From Alphaproteobacteria bacterium (GTDB lineage: Bacteria; Pseudomonadota; Alphaproteobacteria; Caulobacterales; Parvularculaceae): DNA of 36,964 nt. Of the stretch, positions 13,445 through 36,964 are shown one piece after another. Position 1 is the stretch's first letter. Every line of letters starts with the position of its first letter. Location of the stretch: positions 1 to 36,964 of the forward strand of contig JAADIQ010000027.1 in the NCBI GenBank assembly GCA_013151255.1. Reading direction: 5' to 3'. The position numbers were made by a program, and so were the translations under genes. Under the pieces are notes generated by a model that worked only from the letters and a program-made list of their open reading frames with translations, was not told where the DNA came from and searched no databases.

Positions 13445-13486
13445 CTAGAATATCGGGCGAGCAACAAGAATCGCCCGATATTCTAG
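13445..13486. repeat. CTAG-ended perfect palindrome (42 bp)
   Basis: CTAGAATATCGGGCGA (13445-13460) and its exact reverse complement (13471-13486) flank a 10-nt loop. There is no T-tract, so it is not a standard terminator. A second palindrome of 43 bp, also starting and ending with CTAG but with different internal arms, lies at 35868-35910. Confidence 0.8.
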
Positions 13487-13535
13487 ATTCATTGCTGCGC
13501 GCCGGCCCGCGCGCGAAGGCGCGCAGATTATGACT

Positions 13536-13587
13536 CGACCGCCTTCGCGGTCGGGGGGGCGAAAAACCGGTTTCCACTTTTTCGCCC
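13536..13587. repeat. Two adjacent inverted repeats
   Basis: CGACCGCC (13536-13543) faces GGCGGTCG-like arms ending at 13553, a tight hairpin. GGGCGAAAAA (13557-13566) pairs exactly with TTTTTCGCCC (13578-13587) around CCGGTTTCCAC. The second resembles common alphaproteobacterial intergenic repeats containing AAACCGGTTTCCACTTTT. Together with the CTAG palindrome it fills most of the 225-bp gap before the thioesterase gene. Confidence 0.6.
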
Positions 13588-13625
13588 GGCGCTGTAGATA
13601 ACGCCTTCGACCAACCGGAGGTTAT

Positions 13626-34681: not shown

Positions 34682-35448
34682 GCGCCGCCATCATCATTCC
34701 CGCGCGCTATGCCTCAACGCGCCTTCCCGGCAAGCCGTTATTGGCGGAAACCGGCAAGCCGCTTATTCAGTATACCTATGAACAGGCGATGAAATCCAAA
34801 CGCGCCTCGCAAGTGGTGGTGGCGACAGATGACGCCCGCATCAAGGCGATGGTGGAAGGTTTTGGCGGCGCGGTGATGATGACGCGCGAGGGCCATGACA
34901 CCGGCAGCGCAAGGGCAGCGGAGGCGGCGGGCGCCTTGGACGCAGACATCATCGTCAACCTGCAAGGCGACGAGCCGGAAATCGACCCGGCGCATATCGA
35001 CCGGGTGATTGAGCTTGCCGCAAAGCATGATGCGTTTGCCGCAACACTCGTCTGCGCCTTTCCACCAGAGGCGCGCGCCGGACATGGATCGCCGGACGAC
35101 CCATCTGCAGTCAAAGCGATTTTAGGAAAAAGGCTCGAAGGCGACGCCTTTGAGGTGCGGTATTTCACGCGCCACATTTGCCCCTACCCGCGCGCGCCGG
35201 ACGGTGCGATCAGCCATCCGGAAAAATATTATCTGCATCTGGGGATTTACGCTTTCGCCAAAGAGAACCTTTTAACCTTCGCGCAGACGCCCCCGGGCGT
35301 GCTGGAGCGCGCAGAAAAGCTCGAGCAATTGCGCATTCTGGAGGCCAGCGGCCGGATTGTGGCGGGGTGCGTCAGCGCAGCGACGCCGGGCATCGATACG
35401 CGCAGCGACTATGACGCTTTTGTCAGGCGCCAGGCAGCGCGGCGCTAG
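34678..35448 (+). CDS. kdsB: 3-deoxy-manno-octulosonate cytidylyltransferase
   Basis: 256 aa. ATGA overlap with the VanZ-like gene. Characteristic motifs: IIIPARYASTRLPGKPL (5-21), VVVATDDARI, IIVNLQGDEPEIDPAHI, KYYLHLGIYAF and EKLEQLRILE with a C-terminal GIDTRSDYDAF. It activates Kdo with CTP for lipid A-core assembly, showing an outer membrane with LPS. The usual THxSGTDR region reads REGHDTGSARAAEAA, a noticeable but conservative divergence. Confidence 0.93.
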   Translation: MSAAIIIPARYASTRLPGKPLLAETGKPLIQYTYEQAMKSKRASQVVVATDDARIKAMVEGFGGAVMMTREGHDTGSARAAEAAGALDADIIVNLQGDEPEIDPAHIDRVIELAAKHDAFAATLVCAFPPEARAGHGSPDDPSAVKAILGKRLEGDAFEVRYFTRHICPYPRAPDGAISHPEKYYLHLGIYAFAKENLLTFAQTPPGVLERAEKLEQLRILEASGRIVAGCVSAATPGIDTRSDYDAFVRRQAARR

Positions 35449-35483
35449 TAGATGGCAATCCAGCGGCGCTCCTTGCTGTTGCC

Positions 35484-35573
35484 TTATATGAGCGCTGCAT
35501 AAGTATAGGCGGCAGGGGAAATAGCCACCACGATAAGACCGACAATCGTCAGTAGTGTGATTAGTTTTGTCAT
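35484..35573 (-). CDS. 29-aa single-pass membrane peptide
   Basis: On the minus strand, ATG at 35573 to TAA at 35484-35486 encodes 29 residues: MTKLITLLTIVGLIVVAISP then AAYTYAALI, one transmembrane helix. GAGAGGAA precedes the ATG with an 8-base gap, as good as for any gene here. It lies in the kdsB-terC gap on the opposite strand. It has the same length and layout as the peptide at 5756-5845 but no sequence identity beyond hydrophobicity. Function unknown. Confidence 0.55.
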   Translation of the reverse strand: MTKLITLLTIVGLIVVAISPAAYTYAALI

Positions 35574-35805
35574 TTTGTTGTTCCTCTCTTACGCCAGGAG
35601 ATAGGGATCGGGACTGGCAAAGAAAAGACGGCTCAACCGCAGCTCAGCGCATTTTGAAAACGCCTCGGCGAATGACAGTTTCGTTACCTTCGCTTCACCG
35701 CAATTGCCCGGCGCTTTGCCGCCCGGCAAGGGGTTAACGAAAAACCCGAGGTGGGGCGGATTGGTTTTGGCGCTTGCGCTTTGCCGGCGAACATGGCCCA
35801 ACGGC
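35574..35805. other. Gap without supported gene
   Basis: The only frame longer than 60 codons is on the minus strand (35589-35801); it is Pro/Ser/Ala-rich with no ribosome-binding site. The region probably contains the promoter of the peptide gene ending at 35484; no hairpin terminator or motif is convincing. Confidence 0.4.
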
Positions 35806-35812
35806 GCTAGAG

Positions 35813-35853
35813 CATTTCCGGATAAGTGTGACGCGGTTATCCGCTAGAAATGC
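35813..35853. repeat. Alphaproteobacterial palindromic repeat
   Basis: GCATTTC (35812-35818) with GAAATGC near 35847-35853, and GGATAA (35819-35824) with TTATCC (35837-35842), bracket the centre GTGTGACGCGG. This AGAGCATTTCCGG...GTGTGACGCGG pattern belongs to a repeat found in large numbers between alphaproteobacterial genes. It directly precedes the CTAG palindrome. Confidence 0.65.
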
Positions 35854-35867
35854 GGCAAACAAAGAAT

Positions 35868-35910
35868 CTAGAGCAAATCCATGATTCAATTTAACTCGGA
35901 TTTGCTCTAG
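35868..35910. repeat. CTAG-ended palindrome upstream of terC
   Basis: CTAGAGCAAATCC (35868-35880) and GGATTTGCTCTAG (35898-35910) are exact 13-bp arms with a 17-nt loop. It lies 12 bp before AAGGAG of the TerC gene, so it falls in its leader and could affect expression. Same end signature and size as the element at 13445-13486. Confidence 0.8.
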
Positions 35911-35934
35911 CGGAAATAACGAAGGAGAACCGCG

Positions 35935-36735
35935 ATGGAAGGGCTCTTGGCGCTGGAGAACTGGCTCACCCTAGTGATGTTGATATTGCTGCAGGCGGTA
36001 TTGGGCTTTGACAACCTGCTTTACATCTCGATTGAGGCCGGCAAAACGCCGCAAGCTAAACAGCGTTTCGTGCGCCGCGTGGGGATTGGCCTGGCAATCA
36101 TCTTTCGTCTGATATTGATGTTTGTCGTGCTCGGGCTCATCAGCCGGCTCACCCAGCCAATGTTCGCCATTGCCTGGAGCGGCGTCTTTGAGGCCGCGTT
36201 CACCTTCCATGCGCTGGTCTCAATCCTCGGCGGCGGTTTCATCATGTATACGGCGATCAAGGAGATTATGCATCTTCTGGCGGTTGATAATATTGAGAAT
36301 ATCAACAAACCGCGCAAGCGATCTGTCGCCGGCGCGATAACGCTAATTGTTTTGATGAATCTGGTTTTTTCTTTCGACTCGCTGCTCTCCGCCATCGCAC
36401 TGACGCGCGTCCCCTGGGTTATCGCCACCGCGATCATCATCAGCGGCGTAATGATGGTTATGCTCTCAGATCAAGTCTCCGAATTCTTAAAGAAGAACCG
36501 AATGTTTGAAGTGATCGGTTTGTTCATCTTGTTCATCGTCGGCATCTTGCTGCTCACCGAAGGCGGCCATCTTGCGGAAATGAAACTGTTTACCTTCAAG
36601 GTCGAAGCGATGTCGAAGGCGAGCTTTTATTTCATCATCTTTGTGATGGTCATCGTCTCGGTCGTACAAACCCGCTACCGCAACAAGCTCGAAACCTTAC
36701 GCGCAAAAGAACGCAGCAATCCCGCCGGCGCATAG
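35935..36735 (+). CDS. TerC/Alx-family membrane protein
   Basis: 266 aa. AAGGAG (35922-35927) lies 7 bases before the ATG. It has about seven to eight TM helices. Family motifs: LGFDNLLYISIEAGKTP (about 23-39, conserved Asp in a helix) and VLMNLVFSFDSLLSAIALT (about 139-157, second Asp). TerC/Alx proteins export Mn2+ or support metal loading of exported proteins. No yybP-ykoY riboswitch was recognised upstream; the leader instead holds palindromic repeats. Confidence 0.88.
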   Translation: MEGLLALENWLTLVMLILLQAVLGFDNLLYISIEAGKTPQAKQRFVRRVGIGLAIIFRLILMFVVLGLISRLTQPMFAIAWSGVFEAAFTFHALVSILGGGFIMYTAIKEIMHLLAVDNIENINKPRKRSVAGAITLIVLMNLVFSFDSLLSAIALTRVPWVIATAIIISGVMMVMLSDQVSEFLKKNRMFEVIGLFILFIVGILLLTEGGHLAEMKLFTFKVEAMSKASFYFIIFVMVIVSVVQTRYRNKLETLRAKERSNPAGA

Positions 36736-36743
36736 AGCGCCGG
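36725..36743 (+). repeat. Hairpin overlapping the TerC stop codon
   Basis: CCGGCGC (36725-36731) pairs exactly with GCGCCGG (36737-36743) around ATAGA, spanning the TAG stop. Without a T-tract it is at most a weak terminator. Confidence 0.4.
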
Positions 36744-36762
36744 TGAGATTGCGAAAGTGATT

Positions 36763-36964
36763 ATGCGAAAATTGCGTCCGGAAGTTACGCCGTATTATGT
36801 AAGGTCACGTTCGCGATCGGGTTATGTAAGATCACGTTCGCGATCGGGTTATGTAAGATCGCATTCGCGATCGGGTTATGTAAGATCGCATTCGCGATCA
36901 GGTTATGTAAGATCGCATTCGCGATCAGGTTATGTAAGATCGCATTCGCGATCAGGTTATGTAA
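36763..36964 (+). CDS. Candidate repeat protein, partial (runs off window)
   Basis: From ATG 36763 (or GTG 36757) an open frame runs without stop to the window end. After MRKLRPEVTPYY it encodes the 9-residue unit GYVRSRSRS, then GYVRSHSRS, six times, an Arg/Ser-rich tandem repeat. The frame is open because 27 is divisible by 3; another forward frame (LCKIAFAIR units) and one reverse frame (LHNLIANAI units, stop at 36785-36787) are also open, so coding is unproven. Two of the four unit-to-unit base changes are synonymous in this frame, none in the other forward frame. No good ribosome-binding site is visible. It starts 27 bp after the TerC stop. Confidence 0.35.
   Translation, partial: MRKLRPEVTPYYVRSRSRSGYVRSRSRSGYVRSHSRSGYVRSHSRSGYVRSHSRSGYVRSHSRSGYV
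36795..36964. repeat. 27-bp tandem repeat array (6 units plus partial, continues past window)
   Basis: The unit is TTATGTAAGATCGCATTC plus GCGATCAGG. Full copies start at 36795, 36822, 36849, 36876, 36903 and 36930, and an 8-base partial starts at 36957. Copies 4-6 are identical; 1-3 differ stepwise (GGTCACG, then GATCACG, then GATCGCA, all with GGG ends). From copy 3 on, GATCGC-ATTC-GCGATC forms a perfect 6-bp hairpin. There are no unique spacers. Confidence 0.95.

Follow-up and report, generated by a model that had tools for sequence, protein, structure and literature searches.

The window, by which we mean the whole stretch of 36,964 nucleotides that was analysed, constitutes the entire contig C92 of the source genome (3.12 Mb, 131 contigs, 92% complete), and hence the tandem array found at its right edge, past a terC-family gene (Table 1), runs off the contig end. 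Tandem Repeats Finder recovered four arrays in the whole window, the 27-bp one being the strongest (score 284; runner-up 59) and placed at 36795-36964 (6.3 copies, 97% matches). Together with the unit listing, this bore out the preliminary description of the locus (made from the letters alone), according to which six full copies and a partial one reach the window end, change stepwise from left to right and close with three identical units; the perfect hairpin that it attributed to each later unit was recovered by folding (six pairs and an ATTC loop; -9.1 kcal/mol, z -2.9, matched by 4 of 200 shuffles). Three units taken together have a good fold on either strand (z -4.4 and -5.9).

No known RNA family reached its gathering score within 35400-36964, and no intrinsic terminator (a G+C hairpin plus T-run) was detected on the plus strand of 35800-36964, the lone minus-strand site falling inside terC; the terminator scan returned no terminator-like site in the array, and its hairpins have no T-run after them. 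The units are contiguous and without unique spacers, an arrangement that differs from CRISPR architecture. With regard to a viral origin, the exact 24-base core had 0 matches among viral contigs, and a degenerate 24-mer had 0 among genome contigs, both in scanned sets that perhaps did not contain the source genome. Upstream of terC, a weak partial match to the Brucella sRNA CI408 (35810-35854; 25 bits vs 398) overlaps a palindromic stretch (35804-35918) that resembles a second interspersed repeat.

Table 1. Positions of the array, its units and the associated features in the window
Feature	Position	Strand	Details
Intact single copy of the parent element	13509..13556	+	hairpin 1 GCGCGC-GAAG-GCGCGC, linker, hairpin 2 GACCGC-CTTC-GCGGTC; 69.7 bits, E 1.8e-16
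terC-family membrane protein gene, 266 aa	35935..36735	+	Pfam PF03741 TerC, E 5e-34; left neighbour, transcribed towards the array
Strong hairpin over the terC stop codon, without a following T-run	36716..36752	+	36705-36765 folds at -29.9 kcal/mol (z -6.6); the dot-bracket gives the stem limits
Degenerate first copy of the two-hairpin element	36774..36822	+	hairpin 1 (decayed) + linker + hairpin 2; weak match to the covariance model (20 bits)
27-bp array, head to tail	36793..36964	+	unit = linker + GATCGC-ATTC-GCGATC hairpin; reaches the contig end
Array unit 1	36793		TATTATGTAAGGTCACGTTCGCGATCG
Array unit 2	36820		GGTTATGTAAGATCACGTTCGCGATCG
Array unit 3	36847		GGTTATGTAAGATCGCATTCGCGATCG
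Array units 4-6, all identical	36874, 36901, 36928		GGTTATGTAAGATCGCATTCGCGATCA; then a 10-base partial unit
Perfect 27-bp-period tract, 91 bp	36874..36964	+	assembly stop point; C25 tract equally long

The same array recurs, on the minus strand, at the end of contig C25 (80,625 bases), the reverse strand of which starts with it. A 26-base unit query (<= 3 mismatches) found eight places in the source genome, five at the C92 end and three at the C25 end (opposite strand), with no match elsewhere. On C25 the last unit is succeeded by GGGGCGCTA, i.e. the end of an opposite-strand gene of 99 amino acids (no Pfam match of its protein at E 0.01), beyond which lie a tRNA-Ser gene and an IS3-family transposase. 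Hence, the array lies where the terC and 99-aa genes converge, filling the space from one to the other, and we infer from the common array and the synteny that C92 and C25 would be adjoining pieces of the chromosome. Perfect 27-bp periodicity extends over exactly 91 bp at both contig ends. A k-mer assembler would leave such ends at a perfect tandem tract longer than its words, and palindrome-derived repeats turn up at contig ends because they bring the assembler to a halt. As the equal perfect ends resemble a repeat collapse in assembly, the count of six is probably truncated by the break and the true copy number probably higher.

The 99-aa protein is present in 22 of the 28 same-genus genomes, and at 17 of these 22 loci terC lies beside its gene in convergent orientation (the five without a visible terC are the source genome, where the contig breaks off, G024, G002 and G021, where terC is not near, and G007, in which the contig ends inside the 99-aa gene, although its product is no more distant than the one of G006). 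Measured as the distance between the aligned protein ends, the gap spans 47-96 bp in 15 of the 17 relatives and holds no hairpin-2-like site at <= 4 mismatches; some of these array-free gaps (e.g., G022 and G015) carry, as judged by eye, a hairpin followed by a T-run. The G013 gap (L258) is 1420 bp long, also lacks a hairpin-2-like site and possibly holds an extra gene. In G006, which has the most similar TerC found (86%), the gap measures 131 bp and harbours two diverged units, and alignment shows a counterpart of the degenerate first copy in this genome (L018); the ATG that opens the GYVRSHSRS frame in the window is absent. The array-free gaps of 15 relatives and the ATG missing from G006 speak against the coding claim of the preliminary description, and the array appears to have expanded in a single lineage, at a site that would already have borne the element in the ancestor common with G006.

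This longer element, first recognised from weak matches in relatives and from the G006 gap, takes the form GCGCGC-GAAG-GCGCGC, a 12-nt AT-rich linker and GAYCGC-NTTC-GCGRTC. We described it by a covariance model of 48 positions built from nine copies, one of which is the intact copy in the window (Table 1), and against which the array itself scores 14-32 bits in a window-wide scan. The intact copy is flanked by two other palindromic stretches (13448-13600), and similar composites are found on C36 (L053) and C112 (L071). Within the source genome, 84 model rows at E <= 0.1 collapsed (strands and neighbours within 150 bp merged) into 40 places, a number that includes weak matches and counts both ends of the window array separately; by hand count, 20 places have a match above 50 bits. 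The model matches on both strands at 21 of the 40, in keeping with the two inverted palindromes of the parent element. From crude ORF calls for 34 of the places (the window array excluded), 25 are intergenic (18 between unidirectional, 6 between convergent and 1 between divergent genes), 7 fall in ORFs and 2 at contig edges.

Among the 50 genomes scanned at E <= 0.01, the model matched 30, comprising 27 of the 28 of the genus (own included; none in G002), one of two from other genera of the family and two of 20 from the order, all three outside matches being weak (best E 0.002). Model rows ranged from 0 to 115 per same-genus genome (both strands counted). A strict two-hairpin pattern, found in 3 of 28 genus genomes, proved too strict, and the covariance model was used in its place. 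When named genomes were scanned with an exact pattern, 103 stretches matched; of the 80 that were listed, 77 carry the label Marinicaulis, Parvularcula, Parvularculaceae or unplaced Alphaproteobacteria. Three more came from contigs assigned to Leptolyngbya, Opitutales and Deltaproteobacteria (L139, L140, L147), which are likely misbinned or contaminating, since two of them have the OFTM isolate prefix that many Marinicaulis bins share. An exact copy of one stretch of G018 (same genus) lies within a contig of Marinicaulis sp. OFTM310, and thus the genus of the window includes this organism.

The pairing of the two hairpins was assessed in an alignment that drew 50 model matches, 48 of them distinct, on 49 chosen sources, with the best-scoring strand taken by E-value cut. 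Paired stem cells amounted to 99.3%, and double changes occurred in 9 cells over 3 pairs, which none of 500 shuffles reached, in an alignment that was fitted to the structure and is therefore biased towards pairing; further pair types stayed at chance level (272 of 500 shuffles). For the nine copies underlying the model the support was weaker, as 24 of 500 shuffles had at least as many doubly changed pairs. As modelled here, hairpin pairing is a conserved feature of the element.

Tandem growth is not confined to the window. Across all loci, 33 array rows contain the core (nine of period 26-27, 23 of 44-49 and one of 53), with some arrays entered twice, through a second reading or through their other end. 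One-hairpin arrays occur in the source genome on C9, C73, C106, C109, C112 and in the window, the last having the most copies and the most uniform units, and the periods of the sister arrays in this genome include 26, 46 and 53 bp, i.e. multiples of three are not kept. A 27-bp array of 3.1 hairpin 1 units lies in a crude 219-aa ORF on C9 (11187-11334; L284). At C71:10690-10872, four 45-bp palindromic units stand in frame near the N-terminus of a 238-aa frame (G000:C71:10591-11304; L058:1286-1999) with a PDDEXK_11 nuclease-like domain and, by eye, an N-terminal hydrophobic stretch. The predicted repeat peptide is AREGAQTIIRSPSRS, the last three units reading fully AREGAQ(S/T)IIRSPSRS; a relative of this protein in G002 (54% identical over 147 residues) is without repeats. 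A coding guess is hence not absurd for this element family, being simply unsupported at the window array.

Short palindromes of a comparable kind are known as REPs (GTAG and CGTC families), which number many per genome, lie mostly between genes, form dimers and tandem clusters, and are sometimes found in genes or in longer palindromes (PMC3733652). The studied element resembles them in being a short palindrome at 40 places in its genome, mostly intergenic, and differs in having no conserved GTAG/CGTC tag: among 69 flank-distinct single copies, such a tetramer occurs within 8 nt in 10, near the chance expectation of about 11 (calculated by hand, with equal base frequencies). With REPINs and BIMEs, BIME-2 included (PMC3116915, PMC2817692), the parent element shares two hairpins with inverted common cores (CGCGAAGGCG and CGCNTTCGCG), and the array shares near-identical units in tandem, whereas the window array consists of one hairpin type (hairpin 2), all head to tail, so that the inverted pairing is lost. 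Rickettsia is among the genomes known to carry palindromes in frame within genes (PMC10969869, PMC3733652), a likeness found in the C71 array alone, which apparently lies in frame within a gene. The window array, by contrast, lies between genes, and the reviewed Rickettsia elements (RPEs; ~150 bp; PMC10969869) are longer than the element studied here, although RPE-4 and RPE-6 are short CGTC-type REPs (PMC3733652). In the titles and abstracts of the open-licence literature we found no paper on this Marinicaulis/Parvularcula palindrome, and the family has apparently not been described before.

A mobilising enzyme was sought among Y1_Tnp proteins (PF01797), of which the source genome (92% complete) shows no match. 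The gene occurs in 9 of the 28 same-genus genomes (7 above the family cut-off), and the median number of element rows was 46 in genomes with it (n = 9) and 9 in those without (n = 19; p 0.03, kinship uncorrected). All five of the nine matches that we examined (173-178 aa; L233-L237, in G006, G017, G021, G025 and G003) are RAYTs (NF047646). They differ from a REPIN-with-RAYT arrangement for the present element, which does not flank them (one weak model match, 23.5 bits, lies ~1.2 kb off at L236); instead, they are adjoined by inverted palindromes of their own, unlike the studied element when compared by eye, with GTAG at one or both sides. On these grounds (no Y1_Tnp in the own genome, RAYTs of relatives beside other palindromes) we rejected RAYT as the mobiliser of the element; a link to a Y1_Tnp enzyme may yet exist, copy numbers being higher with the gene, although the direct RAYT-flank test was negative.

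The flanks of the element were compared in 179 copies with 40-nt flanks, reduced to 115 without a second core nearby and to 69 single copies after collapsing similar flanks. In 10 of the 69 the flanks are complementary at >= 10 of 12 positions, a count that averaged 1.8 and never exceeded 7 in 500 re-pairings. Insertion of REP dimers within palindromes has been reported in other species (PMC3733652).

We weighed several explanations of the window array. The preliminary description had proposed that a low-complexity protein, (GYVRSHSRS)n, is encoded here or that the minus strand holds a gene with LHNLIANAI repeats. The forward frame of the former is indeed open from the ATG at 36763 to the window end, and the C71 array, read in the matching hairpin frame (RSPSRS) within a frame with a PDDEXK_11 nuclease domain, lends it some plausibility; an open frame is, however, not unusual by itself in such an array, because three of the six frames are open through the repeated unit and shuffled units average 3.4 (83% with at least three). 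When the downstream sequence was followed from C92 onto C25, the frame was found to continue for 33 residues antisense to the widely present 99-aa gene (22 of the 28 genus genomes) and then to stop, if whole units are assumed in the gap. Considering also the 15 relatives with array-free gaps of 47-96 bp, the ATG missing from G006 and sister periods (26, 46 and 53 bp) that cannot hold a frame, we regard the coding reading as very improbable and, chiefly on the synteny and the frame past the array, reject it; the LHNLIANAI gene meets the same objections. Of the further proposals of that description, a noncoding array beside terC is the best reading. It is scarcely credible that the assembler made or multiplied the units: both contig ends halt after exactly 91 bp of perfect period, which suggests that a loop was met, but the diverged units that precede this tract (36793-36873) would not be expected from such a loop, and the uncertainty touches the copy number, not the existence of the array.

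A functional bidirectional 3'-end element, with hairpins that would terminate the transcripts converging from terC and the 99-aa gene or protect them, is a possible reading that we hold on balance to be doubtful; such a role has been proposed for REPs in convergent intergenic gaps. The array stands beyond both stop codons and folds well on both strands, and of the REPs located between convergent genes in two REP-rich species, most are reported to lie < 20 bp from both 3' ends (PMC3733652); its hairpins, however, lack a T-run, no terminator-like site was detected in it, and the 15 relatives do without it here, some with a hairpin and T-run in the gap. By analogy with E. coli BIME-2 arrays, i.e. 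tandem REP units that bind DNA gyrase (PMC2817692), the units could instead form a protein-binding array (a gyrase-type site, iterons or a segregation site), which identical recent copies would suit. This appears improbable, given that 16 of the 17 relatives with both genes have no array and G006 has two diverged units, and that no replication- or partition-like gene was noticed in the adjacent ORFs (named in part).

Accordingly, the array is most probably noncoding and the product of tandem expansion, in which one hairpin with its linker multiplied between the convergent terC and 99-aa genes; the hairpin would come from a two-hairpin palindromic repeat (REP/BIME-like) that is interspersed and genus-specific. 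The preliminary description would have taken the array for a simple minisatellite if the 27-mer were scattered over many noncoding sites, which holds by half: in the source genome the 26-base unit as such is confined to the two contig ends, but its hairpin plus linker belongs to a dispersed family. Descent from this family thus rests on hairpin 2 and the linker and not on identity with the whole element. An element copy would have entered the gap before the species of the window split from G006, since the first copy has a degenerate hairpin 1 in each of the two. Later, in the window lineage, the linker and hairpin 2 would have been duplicated head to tail through slippage or unequal recombination, the identical copies presumably representing recent duplications. 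The likeliest effect would be slight, in that the transcripts of terC and of the 99-aa gene would finish in stable hairpins, and we think that the array is mainly a selfish or neutral repeat. It is, then, a REP-like repeat array and as such of a familiar kind, although the family it belongs to is apparently undescribed. The case also advises caution, as a repeat whose period is a multiple of three can have an open frame and perfect hairpins and still derive from a dispersed palindrome.

A wider reading, which we put forward speculatively and consider rather unlikely to hold in full, is that Marinicaulis and its kin may carry an undescribed family of mobile palindromes that is independent of the known RAYT tags, prefers, as the complementary flanks of single copies would suggest, the loops of older palindromes, and forms head-to-tail arrays in two registers, with either one hairpin (26-27 bp) or two (44-49 bp) per unit. 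Its copies would now and then turn into protein sequence, the nuclease-like gene on C71 being an example, and the window array would show the one-hairpin register in recent growth. The element family could serve the study of how untagged short palindromes spread and grow into arrays.
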